The notes under the pieces were generated by a model, which was not told where the DNA came from, searched no databases, and saw only the letters and a list, made by a program, of their open reading frames with translations. From positions 1 to 33,327 of the forward strand of contig MGAN01000020.1 in assembly GCA_001789745.1 (NCBI GenBank): DNA of 33,327 nucleotides, written 5' to 3'. Position 1 is the first letter of the stretch, and every line of letters starts with the position of its first letter. This document shows positions 12,449 through 31,278 of this stretch, piece after piece. The position numbers and the translations under genes were made by a program. This DNA is from Candidatus Roizmanbacteria bacterium RIFCSPLOWO2_01_FULL_40_13. GTDB lineage: Bacteria; Patescibacteriota; Microgenomatia; UBA1406; GWC2-37-13.

Positions 12449-14086
12449 TCATCCTAATCTTATTTCTTCCAACAAATCCCTACCAGTCATATCTTGTGGT
12501 TTAGGTAATTCAAGCAGAGTCAATACGGTAGGAGCAACATCAGCCAATATTCCTGATTGAAGTTTGATAAACCTTCCTTGATACTTATTGCTAATGGCAA
12601 TAAAAGGCACAGGATTGTCCGTGTGCTCTGTGGAAATTTCACCGGTTTGAGGGTTAATTTTTTCTTCCGCATTTCCGTGATCGGCAGTAATCAACAGGGC
12701 ATAATTTAATAATTTAGCGTGTTCTGCAAGTTTGGCTAAACAAAGATCAATAGTTTTGATAGATTTAATTGTAGCTTCAATATTTCCCGTATGGCCTACC
12801 ATATCAGGATTGGCAAAATTCACTAATATAAAGCGGTATTTTTTTTGTTGCATTTTTTCAATTAGCATATTCGTCAACTCGTAGGCCGACATCTCAGGTT
12901 TCATATCATAAGTGGGGACTTTAGGCGAAGGAATAATTAATCTATCTTCTCCGGGAAAAGAACTCTCAATTTGCCCGTTAAAATAGAAAGTAACAAATCT
13001 TTCCTTTTCAGACTCTGACATTCGCAGCTGTAAAAAACCGGCCTCCGAAATAATTTTCCCAAGCGGATTATTAACTCTGATCGGAGAAAAGGCAACGTAA
13101 GTAGACAGATTTTTTTCATACTCGGTCATCGAGACAAAAAAAAGATTATTTATTTTTTTTCCCCTGCTAAAAGGAGGATTAACTATTTTTTCTTTTGGAA
13201 GATGAGTTTTATAGTACTTGATGGCATAGGGATCAAACGACATTGATTTATTGGCTTCCTGCTCAAAATTATCTAGTACGAACGCTTTAGTCAGCTGTCT
13301 TGGCCTATCAATTCTGTAATTAAAAAAGATTATTGCGTCGTTTTCTTCAATTAAGGCTATCGGTTTACCACCGTCTGTTATGTTAGTGGGATCGATAAAT
13401 TCGTCGGTTTTGCCTTGATTATAGGAACTTTCAATTGCGGTATTTACGTCTTTAGCTTGAATTTCACCGCCACGAATTAAACATAAATAAGCTTTTTCCG
13501 TGCGTTCCCACCGGCGATCACGATCCATTGCGTAATATCGACCCATAATCGAAGCAATCTTACCTATTTTGAAAGCTTCTAGTTTTTCTTGAATATTTTT
13601 TACCGCATTTAATGCCGACTTGGGAGGAGAATCACGGCCGTCCGTAATTAAATGCAAATAAATTTTTTCGCAGGCTTGTTCTTTTAAAAAATATAAAAGC
13701 GCATAAAGATGTTCTATATGTGAGTGAACTGACCCTTCGCCAATCAAACCCAGAAGATGCATTTTACTGCTATTTTTTTTAGTATGATTAGCGGCCTGTA
13801 AAAATATATTATTTTTATAAAAATTTCCGTCCGCAATCGCCATATTTATTCTAGGCAAATCCTGATAAACAATTTTCCCTGCTCCTAGATTAAGATGGCC
13901 AACTTCAGTATTCCCCACTTCATCGGCTGGCAAACCTACTGCTGATCCTGAAGCTTTAAGCGTAGTATTGGGATAACTATAGAGAAAAGAATTTATATTG
14001 GTAGGATTTGCGAGATAGATAGCGTTACCCGGACCATGTGAGGCAATACCAAATCCATCAACAACTATTAGAATAACGGGTGTCAT
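12449..14086 (-). CDS. gpmI: 2,3-bisphosphoglycerate-independent phosphoglycerate mutase
   Basis: Interconverts 3- and 2-phosphoglycerate in the cytoplasm; alkaline-phosphatase superfamily, using two Mn ions. 545 residues. Metal-binding segments are visible: VVDGFG (D10), GEGSVHSHIEHL, TDGRDSPPKSA, FANPDMVGHTGN and TADHGNAEEK. The nucleophile motif, normally GNSEVGHLN, reads GNTEVGHLN here, so Thr60 replaces the catalytic serine. The C-terminus LPKPQDMTGRDLLE is typical. Its product feeds enolase, encoded at 21831. Confidence 0.95.
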   Translation of the reverse strand: MTPVILIVVDGFGIASHGPGNAIYLANPTNINSFLYSYPNTTLKASGSAVGLPADEVGNTEVGHLNLGAGKIVYQDLPRINMAIADGNFYKNNIFLQAANHTKKNSSKMHLLGLIGEGSVHSHIEHLYALLYFLKEQACEKIYLHLITDGRDSPPKSALNAVKNIQEKLEAFKIGKIASIMGRYYAMDRDRRWERTEKAYLCLIRGGEIQAKDVNTAIESSYNQGKTDEFIDPTNITDGGKPIALIEENDAIIFFNYRIDRPRQLTKAFVLDNFEQEANKSMSFDPYAIKYYKTHLPKEKIVNPPFSRGKKINNLFFVSMTEYEKNLSTYVAFSPIRVNNPLGKIISEAGFLQLRMSESEKERFVTFYFNGQIESSFPGEDRLIIPSPKVPTYDMKPEMSAYELTNMLIEKMQQKKYRFILVNFANPDMVGHTGNIEATIKSIKTIDLCLAKLAEHAKLLNYALLITADHGNAEEKINPQTGEISTEHTDNPVPFIAISNKYQGRFIKLQSGILADVAPTVLTLLELPKPQDMTGRDLLEEIRLG

Positions 14087-14651: not shown

Positions 14652-14696
14652 CGCGATGAGTCTATATTAATTCTTTATTGAAGTTTTAATTCATCC

Positions 14697-14790
14697 TATA
14701 TACCACTCGCAAATGAATTTGCTCGAGTATATACCCCTCTAAGCTGCTTTGACAACCCGATGGGTTGCAAACCAGCATAAGACGGGTATA
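14697..14790 (+). repeat. Two-hairpin dispersed element, copy 3
   Basis: The first hairpin has ACTCGCAAAT pairing with ATTTGC-t-CGAGT around a GA loop. The second is at 14730-14790: left arm TATACCCCTCTAAGCTG, right arm CAGCATAAGACGGGTATA, loop region CAACCCGATGGGTTG. Both stems are long and clear. It lies between ruvC and the 23S gene. Confidence 0.8.
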
Positions 14791-14816
14791 GCTACCGCAA
14801 TACGAAATGTCATATT

Positions 14817-14981
14817 TGTCATCCTGAATTTATTTCAGGATCTTGTTGTTTATACTTCTGTTAATTGATATAGCAATCAGTATATACCCCTCCTTAGTTG
14901 ATTTGATAAGATGACTTTAGTTGACAATTTGCAAAATTAACTAAGAGGGGGTATAGATGCTGATACAAGTTCAGCATGACA
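14817..14981 (+). repeat. TGTCATCCTGA-type repeat, copy B, interrupted by element copy 4
   Basis: The left part TGTCATCCTGAATTTATTTC with CAGGATCTTG forms one hairpin (CCTGAA ... TTCAGG). The right part ATGCTGATACAAGTTCAGCA forms another and runs into TGACA. The two halves are separated by the two-hairpin element at 14851-14955, so this repeat was the target of that insertion. Confidence 0.65.
14851..14955 (+). repeat. Two-hairpin dispersed element, copy 4 (nested)
   Basis: The 5' box TATACT pairs with AGTATA, with ATTG/CAAT inside. The main stem-loop is at 14883-14955: left arm TATACCCCTCCTTAGTTGAT, right arm ATTAACTAAGAGGGGGTATA. It is nearly identical to copy 6 at 25483, including the central ATAAGATGACTTTAGTTGAC. 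Confidence 0.8.
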
Positions 14982-21830: not shown

Positions 21831-23102
21831 CTATTTTTTCAACTCCTCCCTTTCAATCTGCCACAAACGATTATATTTTGCCAACCTCTCACCACGGGCA
21901 GATGCTCCGAATTTCACAAAATCAGACTGCACAGCCACAGCAAAGTCCGCGATAAAGCTGTCGTTGGTCTCACCCGATCGATGGGAGACAATATAATTAA
22001 AACTGTTTTTTCTCGCTAGATCTATGACCTCAAGCGTTTCGGTAATTGTTCCTATTTGGTTGGGTTTGACAAGCACAGTAGTGCAGATTTTTTCCCGGAT
22101 GGCGCGCTCAAGTCTTTGCTTATTGGTCGTAAGAATATCGTCACCGACCAGATAGATATTCTTGGGAATTTTCAGATTAAAAGCGGCCCAATCCTGCCAG
22201 TTGTCTTCGTGGATGGGATCTTCAACTACCAAAAACGGGTAGGAGGTGACGAGTTTGTAAAGAAAATCAAGATATTCGTCAGATTTTAGTGGGTGGGGTT
22301 TATCTTTAATCTGATATCTGCCTTCTTTATAAAAATGCGAGGCGGCAATATCCAGGCCCAAAAAAACATCGAGGCCTATCTTGAGATTCTTTTGCCCGAT
22401 TGTTTCAATTAGAATTTCTATGGCATCCAGATTGGTGGGAAAGTCAGGCGCAAATCCTCCCTCTTCCCCAACCGAAATATTGGAATTTCGGTAGACCAGA
22501 ACTTTCTGCACTTCATGGTAAACCTCAACTCCAATCCTGTATGCTTCGGTAAAGGAAAACGACGATGAAGGTATGATCTGAAACTCCTGGAATTCCAAAT
22601 TGTTATTGGCGTGCTTACCGCCATTGATGATGTTAAAAATCGGGGCGGGCAATCTCTCTATGGGAATCTGGGATTTGAAGATAGACTGGTAGAGGCTGTT
22701 GATGTATTTGAACAGAGATATTTTGAGATCGTCTGCCGCCGCTTTAACTATTAATTGCGAGATGGTGAGAACGGTGTTGCCTCCCAGTTTGCTTTTATTT
22801 TTTGTTCCATCGGCTTTGATCAGCCAGCCGTCGATCTCTTGCTGTTTTAAGGGAGAAACACCTACCAGCTTCGGACCGATTAGGTCGTTAATATAAGATA
22901 CCGCCCTAGTGACACCCATTCCGTCGAATCGCGAATTATCATTATCTCTCAACTCCAAAGCTTCAGTCTTGCCTCTTGATGTACCGGCGGGTATTGAGGT
23001 AGTAACCGATATGCCGTTATCAAGTATGAGTCTCCCCTCTATAGTAGGGTAACCACGGGAATCAATGATCTCATAAGCGTAAATTTTTTTGATTTTAGCC
23101 AT
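21831..23102 (-). CDS. eno: Enolase (phosphopyruvate hydratase), divergent
   Basis: Converts 2-phosphoglycerate to PEP. 423 residues. Conserved parts: YEIIDSRGYPTIE, the Mg-loop PAGTSRGKTEALELRD (usually SGASTG; the loop serine is retained), NIINGGKHANNNLEFQEF, VGEEGGFAPDF, LDVFLGLDIAASHFY, VVEDPIHEDNW, VGDDILTTN, the catalytic lysine in TVLVKPNQIGT, and SHRSGET. All expected metal ligands and catalytic residues appear present, though surrounding sequence is unusually diverged. It lies 33 bases downstream of ppsA on the same strand, so the two are probably one transcript acting on PEP. Confidence 0.95.
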   Translation of the reverse strand: MAKIKKIYAYEIIDSRGYPTIEGRLILDNGISVTTSIPAGTSRGKTEALELRDNDNSRFDGMGVTRAVSYINDLIGPKLVGVSPLKQQEIDGWLIKADGTKNKSKLGGNTVLTISQLIVKAAADDLKISLFKYINSLYQSIFKSQIPIERLPAPIFNIINGGKHANNNLEFQEFQIIPSSSFSFTEAYRIGVEVYHEVQKVLVYRNSNISVGEEGGFAPDFPTNLDAIEILIETIGQKNLKIGLDVFLGLDIAASHFYKEGRYQIKDKPHPLKSDEYLDFLYKLVTSYPFLVVEDPIHEDNWQDWAAFNLKIPKNIYLVGDDILTTNKQRLERAIREKICTTVLVKPNQIGTITETLEVIDLARKNSFNYIVSHRSGETNDSFIADFAVAVQSDFVKFGASARGERLAKYNRLWQIEREELKK

Positions 23103-28350: not shown

Positions 28351-29331
28351 TTAAAGTCGGATTTCCCTTTCTAACCATGGGATTTTTTCATTCTTTCTTT
28401 TCCAAAACAAATCTTCCCAAATGTAATGCACGGCGAGCTGTTTGTATTTTCCAAATTTTTCAAAATGTTTCAATAATTTTTTGACAGGCACAGGATTTTC
28501 GGGGTCGCGGTCAAAAAATAATTTTGAATAAATTTTCTGTTCCCACGGCGAAACATGATTGAAAAAATCCCAATGATGGAAAACATCAAAAAGTAAATAC
28601 CAAACAGTTGCGGGACCAACGCCGTAAAGTTTCAGCAATTCTGTCATTTGCGTTTCTCTATCTTTGGCTCTCAATTCTTTTTCACTAATCAATCCTTGCG
28701 AGAAATAATCATCAAGTCTTTTGATTGATTTTGCTCGGTAGCCGACTTTCAGTGCCCTCAACTCACCTTCACTTACTTTTTGAAGTTTTCCAGGGCTCCA
28801 AAAACACCATAATTTTTTGTCGTCAAATTCAAGCTGTGTTCCGTAATTTTCTAAAAGTGCTTTGAACATTTGAACAGATCGCCGAACCGAGGCATTTTGC
28901 AAAACCATTCCAATTATCAGATATTCATACAAACAGCTCGGGTGTCCAGGTCGCATACCACGCCATTTTTTCAAAATTGGATTAAGAAAATCATCCTTCT
29001 TAAAAGTATTGTAAAAATCGCTTAAATCAAGATTGAAGTTATAGAGATATTTTATTTCTTCAATAAGCGAGTCAACAAAATTATTTGCCAATTTGTTTTT
29101 GGCATAAATCTTTATTTCTACGAGTGGATTTTCGAGCGTTCCTTTATTTGAAAACTTAATGCCAAGCGGTTTGTCTTGCCAATTCCAAGTTTGCCAACGA
29201 ATACCTTGCTCCCAATAATTATCTCCCGAAGTGAAATGGTCTGGTTTGTGAAAAGTTGGGTCAAAAGCAAATGGTTTTGTTGGTTTAATCTCGAGAATTT
29301 TTTGCAGCTTTAATTTAGTCGTTTTTTTCAT
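28351..29331 (-). CDS. HhH-GPD family DNA glycosylase (AlkA/OGG-like)
   Basis: Probably removes damaged bases in base-excision repair. 326 residues. A long N-terminal part (about 1-130) is followed by the helical glycosylase fold: YEYLIIGMVLQNASVRRSVQM, the family segment LRALKVGYRAKSIKRL (195-206), and a helix-hairpin-helix LLKLYGVGPATVWYLLF (232-248). After the HhH, most members have a PVDxHV-type loop with the catalytic aspartate. Here the sequence is HWDFFNHVSPWEQKIYSKL, with no aspartate at that exact place (D255 is seven or so residues earlier). Substrate unknown; it could be a divergent 3-methyladenine or 8-oxoguanine enzyme. It lies 41 bases downstream of a tiny ORF and the 592-residue gene on the same strand. 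Confidence 0.8.
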   Translation of the reverse strand: MKKTTKLKLQKILEIKPTKPFAFDPTFHKPDHFTSGDNYWEQGIRWQTWNWQDKPLGIKFSNKGTLENPLVEIKIYAKNKLANNFVDSLIEEIKYLYNFNLDLSDFYNTFKKDDFLNPILKKWRGMRPGHPSCLYEYLIIGMVLQNASVRRSVQMFKALLENYGTQLEFDDKKLWCFWSPGKLQKVSEGELRALKVGYRAKSIKRLDDYFSQGLISEKELRAKDRETQMTELLKLYGVGPATVWYLLFDVFHHWDFFNHVSPWEQKIYSKLFFDRDPENPVPVKKLLKHFEKFGKYKQLAVHYIWEDLFWKRKNEKIPWLEREIRL

Positions 29332-29499: not shown

Positions 29500-31278
29500 C
29501 TAGCTTGGTTTCGCTAATTTTCTCTCTTTTACCCAAGGCATTTTACTAATGTAGTTGTCCCACATATCAACATAGTGTTTATCAGCAAAACTCTTGCCAT
29601 AACCATGGCTTTGACTTTTATATTCTATAAGCGGCGTAAACAAATCCCTTGCTCTGGTCCAATGTCTACGGATACCAACGTTAGTAATAGGATTATTATC
29701 AAGGTCGTCAATCATCGCAAACCAAACCTTCTCAACTTTGGTTTTGTCATCATAAATGACTTTTATCATATGCAGTTTTTTGCTATATTTAGCAGAATAA
29801 ATTTCAACCCTATGATATTTACCATCTACGTCTTTTTGTAACCATTCATCAACTAAATAATTAAAATCAGGTTTATCTTCATCATTGGCAAAATTAACTT
29901 TTTCGGGTGGAATTTTCTCTCTTCGGATATAAAAGTTTCCGGCTATATCACGGGGAGTTTCCACAACCTCTCCGAAATATGAATCTCTACCAGAAATAGA
30001 TCGAGAAGTACCGTAAAATAATAGTCTGGCATCTGCAGGAATTACCAGTTTTTCTTGCTTTTGAGTGGTTATCAGGGCCAGAGATTTTTGCATAGGAATA
30101 GGTAAATTAATACTTGATTCTTCAAAACCTTTTCCAAACATACCATATATATTGTAAGGTAAATATCTCCAAGTTCTATGTGAAGTGCTCATATAAAAAG
30201 TTCTAACGGTATATTTGCCTTCTCCGCGCCTAGCATCTGGAACATAGGCTACCACAGCTTGTCTTTTACTGTCACTTGCTTCGAATAAATAGGCATCAGA
30301 AAAATAAACGCTGTAATCCTTTCCGTTATCGGTAAATCTAACTTTATATTTAGGTCTCATTTCTTCCTGCTGCAATATTTCACGTGTCAGAAATTTTCCG
30401 GTTGTAGCATCACCATGAATTTCCGTATTCTTGAATACGCCATTTACTGCATCAGTATCTGCTTCGACAACTTCCGGGTCAGAATATAAGTTTTTTATCC
30501 TTGCTTCTCTCTTGAGCAGCTGTAACTGCTCCCAATACTCATACTGCTTACCGTAAAGTAAATGCCCACATGATCTAAATGCCAGTGAAATTTCGAAGGG
30601 AGACGGATTAATTTTCTCTAAAATGATATTCAAAAATTCTCGGACACGTTCAACATTCTCGTTAAAATGGTTAGGTGAAGGTGAAATCTCCCATATTGAT
30701 TTAAGTGTATCTGCGTCTAATCCGCTCACAAGAGTACTCTGATCTGATGTGGGATTATTAATCAAGTGGTAAAACCACAAAGTTCGACGCATTAATAATT
30801 TTATTCTATCCGCCTGATTTTTTGGCTCTTGATTTTCGTTTTTATCATATTGCAGGCTTTTGAGTATTTTGCCAAGAATTTCTCTTTCTTTATTTTTATA
30901 TTCGGTTTTGGACATAGTTTGACTATAAAAGTCCAGTATCGTACGTGTATTTACCCAAGACTCGGTAATTATCTCACGAGTAAAGTTATCAGGTATTTCT
31001 CCCTTAGCAAGTTTATCCAAAAAATCAATTCTTCCTGCTTCGCTAACTTGCAGTTTTAATTCACCGGTACTTCCAACATGTTCATTAAACTCCGCAATCT
31101 TTCTTTCTCTTTCTTGTCGTAGTAAATTAGCTGTATCTCTAGATATTTGATATAACTTTATAATTTTATTTTGTTGTCTAGTATTTGGTCTAGGTTCAAC
31201 GCTAGGAAATAAAAAACTATCATCACCTGGTATTTTATCTCGGTCAAAATTGGGTTGCCTATATTCACGATTATCCAT
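29500..31278 (-). CDS. 592-residue protein of unknown function
   Basis: Not recognised. There is no signal peptide and no transmembrane helix, so it is likely cytoplasmic or exported by an unusual route. The first 40 residues are polar and disordered-looking (DNREYRQPNFDRDKIPGDD). A mostly helical middle follows (about 40-260). The C-terminal half is beta-rich with many aromatic residues: YKVRFTDNGKDYSVYFSDAY, RTFYMSTSHRTWRYLPYN, GMFGKGFEESSINLP, and a final GYGKSFADKHYVDMWDNYIS. The repeated pattern of short strands ending in Tyr/Phe suggests a folded binding or enzymatic module, but no catalytic motif is evident. The gene is divergent from the tRNA-Glu/GIY-YIG locus and has its own -10 box. 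Codon use looks like its neighbours. Confidence 0.85.
   Translation of the reverse strand: MDNREYRQPNFDRDKIPGDDSFLFPSVEPRPNTRQQNKIIKLYQISRDTANLLRQERERKIAEFNEHVGSTGELKLQVSEAGRIDFLDKLAKGEIPDNFTREIITESWVNTRTILDFYSQTMSKTEYKNKEREILGKILKSLQYDKNENQEPKNQADRIKLLMRRTLWFYHLINNPTSDQSTLVSGLDADTLKSIWEISPSPNHFNENVERVREFLNIILEKINPSPFEISLAFRSCGHLLYGKQYEYWEQLQLLKREARIKNLYSDPEVVEADTDAVNGVFKNTEIHGDATTGKFLTREILQQEEMRPKYKVRFTDNGKDYSVYFSDAYLFEASDSKRQAVVAYVPDARRGEGKYTVRTFYMSTSHRTWRYLPYNIYGMFGKGFEESSINLPIPMQKSLALITTQKQEKLVIPADARLLFYGTSRSISGRDSYFGEVVETPRDIAGNFYIRREKIPPEKVNFANDEDKPDFNYLVDEWLQKDVDGKYHRVEIYSAKYSKKLHMIKVIYDDKTKVEKVWFAMIDDLDNNPITNVGIRRHWTRARDLFTPLIEYKSQSHGYGKSFADKHYVDMWDNYISKMPWVKERKLAKPS

Follow-up and report, generated by a model that had tools for sequence, protein, structure and literature searches.

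A cofactor-independent phosphoglycerate mutase (iPGM or GpmI) with threonine in place of serine at the nucleophile position is encoded in a 33,327-nucleotide stretch of DNA from Candidatus Roizmanbacteria bacterium RIFCSPLOWO2_01_FULL_40_13, here termed the window. Judged from sequence comparisons and a structural model, the protein is very probably a working Microgenomates mutase in which threonine would serve as the phosphate-carrying nucleophile. On sequence grounds it is a GpmI by descent and a variant in its nucleophile, because orthologues with serine and with threonine interleave on phylogenetic trees. Serine is described as the phosphate carrier of iPGM, via a phosphoserine intermediate (PMC2964296, PMC5382265; papers are cited here by PMC number and from excerpts). 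A threonine nucleophile in iPGM was not found in the titles and abstract openings of open-licence PMC papers, among the matches listed. Threonine nucleophiles are already known elsewhere in the superfamily; threonine in iPGM adds to these, and its interest is that the swap recurs within a single enzyme.

Gene product and active site

The features of the window are as follows. Rows are those of an alignment of 214 GpmI sequences, comprising 95 with threonine at the nucleophile position (Thr rows), 42 serine rows of the Microgenomates clade and 77 rows outside that clade (ordinary rows).

12449..14086 (-), gpmI, cofactor-independent phosphoglycerate mutase of 545 aa (TIGR01307; PF06415 and PF01676; model against 4my4, Z 47.9)
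12623..12628 (-), Glu487-His488, metal site 1 histidine and the residue preceding it (His488 in 213/214 rows, with one gap; Glu487 in 91/95 Thr rows)
12677..12682 (-), Asp469-His470, metal site 2 ligands (both in 214/214 rows)
12791..12805 (-), Asp428 to His432, metal site 1 ligands (both in 214/214 rows)
12995..13006 (-), Lys361-Glu-Arg-Phe364, the phosphate-binding lysine (Lys336 of 1ejj) and its changed neighbours, mostly Lys-Tyr-Ala-His in ordinary rows (row counts)
13172..13258 (-), inter-domain linker insert, residues 277-305, poorly modelled (alignment rows; pLDDT 54-56 at residues 281-300)
13724..13726 (-), His121, transferase-domain substrate residue equivalent to His123 of S. aureus iPGM (His in 214/214 rows; PMC5382265)
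13889..13915 (-), nucleophile motif GNTEVGHLN, residues 58-66 (sequence; 1ejj alignment)
13907..13909 (-), codon ACT of Thr60, equivalent to Ser62 of B. stearothermophilus iPGM (phmmer alignment)
14057..14059 (-), Asp10, metal site 2 ligand (Asp in 214/214 rows; aligned by phmmer)
21831..23102 (-), enolase, the next pathway enzyme (PF00113 and PF03952)

The gpmI frame at 12449-14086 (-) is complete and open, and its 545 amino acids represent the full length of GpmI. The translated sequence scores 596.8 bits with the TIGR01307 equivalog model (curated cut-off 330.65), carries the Pfam domains iPGM_N (PF06415) and Metalloenzyme (PF01676), and is 42% identical to E. coli gpmM. With another GpmI model, NF003897, it scores 520 bits, under the cut-off of 862. 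Scores with the phosphopentomutase (DeoB) models also fall under the cut-offs (TIGR01696, 19.9 against 341.2; NF003766, 44.1 against 256; NF009049, 44.6 against 254), as does that with the archaeal-type apgM model TIGR00306 (39.5 against 320). The best solved matches to an AlphaFold2 model of the protein (mean pLDDT 94.5, pTM 0.89) are the iPGMs 4my4 and 4nwj (Z 47.9, 503 residues, rmsd 2.2). Phosphopentomutases come next (4n7t, Z 25.4), and then NPPs and SPAP (3q3q, Z 23.7).

The gene is flanked by a PfkB-family kinase gene on one side and ruvC on the other. Enolase and a PEP synthase-like enzyme are encoded approximately 8 and 9 kb away, respectively, both past the 23S rRNA gene. The interval from ruvC to the 23S rRNA gene contains, at 14695-14892, two exact copies and one imperfect copy of the 14-nt sequence AGTATATACCCCTC. 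Elsewhere in the window, open reading frames of 326 and 592 aa at 28351-29331 and 29500-31278 (-) display no Pfam match at E 0.001. The assembly from which the window comes consists of 21 contigs.

Thr60 stands within GNTEVGHLNLG. The phmmer alignment places it opposite Ser62 of the B. stearothermophilus enzyme (1ejj) and opposite the alanine of the S62A mutant (1o99), which bears out a preliminary description of this DNA that had put threonine at the phosphorylated position. The serine nucleophile of GpmI, with its phosphoserine intermediate, is thus replaced in the window protein by Thr60. The same description had called the metal motifs intact, and all six ligands are indeed present: Asp428, His432 and His488 at site 1, and Asp10, Asp469 and His470 at site 2. 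Both sites are complete in the 95 Thr rows as well, and the ligands match the two metal sites of C. elegans iPGM as listed in PMC5382265. That paper gives the substrate residues of S. aureus iPGM as His123, Asp154, Arg185, Arg191 and two further arginines. In the transferase domain of the Thr proteins H121, D152, R183, R189, R258 and R261 are kept in 95/95 rows, and so is K361, which lies opposite Lys336 of 1ejj in the phmmer alignment. Lys336 of iPGM is named in PMC3145672.

Distribution of threonine and interchange with serine

Threonine occupies the site in 95/137 rows sampled from the Microgenomates (Patescibacteria) GpmI clade and in 0/77 rows outside it. It is therefore not peculiar to the window's genome, and the possibility, raised in the preliminary description, that threonine is common across ordinary GpmI is not borne out. 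Neither is the possibility that the true nucleophile lies elsewhere, as the 230 aligned hits comprise 122 with serine and 106 with threonine at the site, and two that do not cover it. All four threonine codons are used in the 106 hits, repeat loci counted (ACC 40, ACT 37, ACA 18, ACG 11). In the samples taken, these alignments show the substitution to be restricted to this clade.

Phyla beyond Patescibacteria were sampled only through 80 named loci, the best 80 of 582 relatives. These provide 83 GpmI sequences, 12 with threonine and 71 with serine. The 12 threonine loci (L003-L007 and L009-L015) have titles naming Woesebacteria, Roizmanbacteria, Beckwithbacteria, Gottesmanbacteria, the Microgenomates group and the Patescibacteria group, L003 being titled 'bacterium'; serine is found at the site in L008 (Patescibacteria group) and L017 (Shapirobacteria). 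Among the window's own and related genomes, 25/37 have a GpmI match. Threonine is present in 21/21 genomes, the own genome included, whose Microgenomates-type GpmI covers the motif region (here termed Thr genomes); in G017 the GpmI match lacks this region.

Across 286 genomes of the phylum, the threonine motif was detected in 9/24 genomes of the window's class and in 1/262 others. The single genome outside the class, G441, was rejected as a chance match: the frame holding its motif is not a GpmI, and a serine motif is found elsewhere in the genome. The serine motif, searched for as TCN codons with AGY serine left out, was detected in a phylum sample of the same size in 2/24 genomes of the class and 108/262 others. 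The motif pattern misses some true GpmI sequences (G030 has threonine yet no pattern match), and the sequences fetched represent part of the 178 genomes with pattern matches.

Other forms of GpmI were encountered in these searches. A second, divergent serine-type GpmI with the motif GGSEVGHLTIG is found at L105, L106, L108 and L109 (G019, G012, G025 and G022, respectively); it lies beside the Thr enzyme in G022 and G025 and is the sole GpmI found in G012 and G019. Pairs of GpmI motifs approximately 1.55-1.65 kb apart on one strand are seen in G402, G420, G437, G445, G466, G506, G591 and G629 and at loci L016, L038 and L072, and G559 has three motif copies on one strand with this spacing. The spacing is as for tandem gpmI duplicates, which in the G genomes are seen as motifs only; at the three loci both motif copies lie in long open frames. 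One copy of some pairs reads GNSEAGH. In addition, a TIGR01307 match is absent in 72/187 genomes of the same class (16 of the 20 listed are at least 95% complete), and part of the class may therefore use another mutase or none.

Phylogenetic trees were constructed from the 214 rows (95 Thr, 87 TCN-Ser and 32 AGY-Ser) that remained after removal of 11 duplicates and of L103, L112, L119, L124 and L158, which had less than 80% coverage or lacked the site residue (L119 and L124 have threonine). None of the three trees uses the nucleophile column, and the IQ-TREE and careful trees also leave out the linker and the columns around Lys361. With FastTree, all 95 Thr rows fall within the 137-row clade (support 97, starred), which includes an all-Thr clade of 75 rows (also support 97). 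A careful tree of 75 rows has a matching Microgenomates clade at 87/92, unstarred, and a 19-row all-Thr clade at 99/98. The serine/threonine changes needed number eight on the FastTree tree (214 rows), eight on the IQ-TREE tree (149 rows) and nine on the careful tree; starred branches force at least seven, at least six and at least six of these, respectively. Serine and threonine are thus shown by these trees to have interchanged at least six times on supported branches, and since the changes are repeated among orthologues, both residues would serve orthologous genes.

A serine of the AGY type appears among Thr rows (L190), and an AGY group (L177-L183) lies beside the Thr row L176. Ordinary TCN rows, too, give rise to AGY serine where no threonine is near, so that threonine is not singled out as the route between the serine codons (TCN to ACN to AGY).

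Residues that vary with Thr60

In comparison with GpmI as represented by 1ejj and E. coli gpmM, the window protein has the same fold, two domains, inspected ligands and motif position. It differs from ordinary GpmI in having threonine for serine, Lys-Glu-Arg-Phe for mostly Lys-Tyr-Ala-His, glutamate for mostly alanine ahead of the site 1 metal histidine, and a linker insert of approximately 30 residues that is shared by part of the clade's serine rows.

Phe364 is present in 95/95 Thr rows, 9/42 clade serine rows and 0/77 ordinary rows. At this position the other clade serine rows have histidine (19) or methionine (14), and the ordinary rows have histidine (76) or asparagine (1). Lys361 is followed by Glu-Arg-Phe in 93/95 Thr rows and by Tyr-Ala/Pro-His in 69/77 ordinary rows, and Lys361-x-Arg363 is found in 94/95 Thr rows. 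By parsimony, Phe364 was lost four times, always on serine or switching branches and never on a branch staying threonine. In two trees the serine or switching branches contribute 14.5-14.7% of the branch length at risk, and in the third 26.5%, against about 85% and 73%, respectively, for branches staying threonine.

A scan of 449, 450 and 428 columns on the three trees ranks Phe364 second in each (p 0.0005, 0.0004 and 0.005). Glu487 is first in two trees (p 0.0003) and falls below the tenth rank in the careful tree, and Arg363 and the linker residue His295 are within the first five in all three. No p value of the scan survives Bonferroni correction over approximately 450 columns in any of the three trees. 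With independent pairs, which are too few, sign tests do not reach 0.05 for residues 62, 259, 262, 359, 362 and 363. For residue 364, a mean over pairings of 3.9 of seven independent pairs differ in the same way, none in the opposite way and 3.1 show no difference. As an exploratory result, the occurrence of threonine only with Phe364 near Lys361 hints at an epistatic shell around the nucleophile. The model places residues 359-368 in a helix; by helix geometry, Phe364 should sit near the Lys361 face and Arg363 should point away from it.

The linker insert is common in the clade, and the stretch 273-307 has a median length of 33 residues in Thr rows versus 5 in ordinary rows. His295, within the insert, goes with Thr60. 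As a condition for threonine the insert is unsupported: L176 has threonine and no insert, and part of the serine rows carry it.

Mutase function and alternative explanations

In 16 of the 21 Thr genomes, neither gpmA nor apgM is matched over the cut-off and a second full-length GpmI is absent, a count that becomes 15/21 if a 156-aa GpmI fragment of G013 is included. Another possible mutase is found in five: G033 is alone in having gpmA over the cut-off, G023 and G027 are the only two with apgM over it, and G022 and G025 carry a second full-length GpmI. At E 0.001 no gpmA-family match is seen in nine of the 21, including the 98% complete G002, and the remaining 12 have at least one, under the cut-off except in G033. 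Completeness of these genomes is 77-99%. A phosphoglycerate kinase is present in G002. None was detected in the 89% complete genome of the window, so the pathway may not be whole there. A complete Microgenomates genome has an annotated phosphoglycerate mutase (PMC7143001). The distribution of mutase genes among the Thr genomes argues that the Thr enzyme would perform the mutase step in them; since no other mutase was found in 16/21, a working Thr mutase is the most likely reading. The enolase gene in the window also speaks for this reading, and the NF003897 score under the cut-off speaks against it.

In the reaction proposed, the Oγ of Thr60, held at metal site 2 (Asp10, Asp469, His470), would attack the phosphate of 3-phosphoglycerate with the help of Lys361, and a phosphothreonine intermediate would form at Thr60. 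The glycerate would then turn in the transferase domain (His121, Asp152, Arg183, Arg189, Arg258, Arg261), and the phosphate would go back to O2. We infer mutase activity and phosphothreonine in the Thr enzyme, with Phe364 and its neighbours probably making room for the extra methyl group of threonine.

The preliminary description had considered activity plausible because superfamily relatives of the NPP type use threonine. By alignment the general analogy would hold, and NPPs do use threonine; the closest threonine precedent, however, is phosphopentomutase (DeoB). Like GpmI, this enzyme is a mutase belonging to the alkaline phosphatase superfamily, and titles of its structure entries name phosphorylated forms and variants of T85. 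Its nucleophile is T85. The E. coli DeoB segment GKDTPSGHWE was set by eye against GNTEVGH and GNTETGH. DeoB differs in its substrate, 236/402 residues of 4n7t align with the model, and the window protein is under the deoB cut-offs. NPP/ENPP enzymes are diester hydrolases that lack a transferase domain. They share the threonine nucleophile, with ENPP6 as a serine exception, and a serine/threonine difference inside one family is thus already known (PMC11677397). SPAP has Thr89 as nucleophile among alkaline phosphatases that otherwise use serine (PMC3145672); unlike GpmI it is a hydrolase.

That the Thr enzyme has no mutase function now and acts as a phosphatase or on another substrate is unlikely. 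Residues near Lys361 do differ along with threonine, and E. coli alkaline phosphatase is badly impaired when threonine replaces its serine, with kcat approximately 4000-fold lower (PMC11677397, citing Wang and Kantrowitz); according to PMC3145672 it does not tolerate the swap. However, the six transferase-domain residues kept in every Thr row, the 16/21 genomes with no other mutase found and the interleaving of serine and threonine orthologues all speak for retained function. Convergence on an SPAP-type alkaline phosphatase site, threonine with Lys-x-Arg, is more improbable still. Such a reading draws on the SPAP active site of Thr89, Lys171 and Arg173, in which Lys171 superposes on Lys336 of iPGM (PMC3145672), and on Lys361-x-Arg363 in nearly all Thr rows, but an SPAP-like site is unsupported, since the helix predicted for residues 359-368 should turn Arg363 away from the Lys361 face. 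A fault of sequencing or assembly, or gene decay, has next to no probability and is ruled out by the open 545-aa frame, by threonine in 21/21 genomes and by the use of all four ACN codons across the 106 aligned hits.

Neutral toggling, whereby serine and threonine are equivalent in the clade and the neighbouring changes are mere clade markers, is a serious possibility, if short of an even chance, and is compatible with a working Thr mutase. Each step of TCN-ACN-AGY requires one base and at least six interchanges are seen; moreover, the independent-pair sign tests miss 0.05, Phe364 is retained in nine serine rows and the column scan fails correction. On the other side, threonine never occurs without Phe364 and never in the ordinary rows, and 4/4 losses of Phe364 fall on serine or switching branches (p 0.0004-0.0005 and 0.005). 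A fuller form of the working-mutase reading is put forward tentatively: a phosphothreonine mutase may run lower glycolysis in much of the class, and a small epistatic shell, Phe364 by Lys361 and perhaps Glu487 by the site 1 histidine, may permit threonine and be released on return to serine.

A motif rule based on GNSEVGH would miss or doubt the enzymes of this clade. The interleaved serine and threonine orthologues represent ready pairs for determining the cost of the swap and the compensating neighbours. As the only mutase detected in 16/21 genomes, the threonine version would demonstrate that a central enzyme of glycolysis can change its nucleophile, and more than once. If the epistatic-shell reading is true, the clade holds a series of nucleophile swaps, natural and reversible, within a single essential enzyme.
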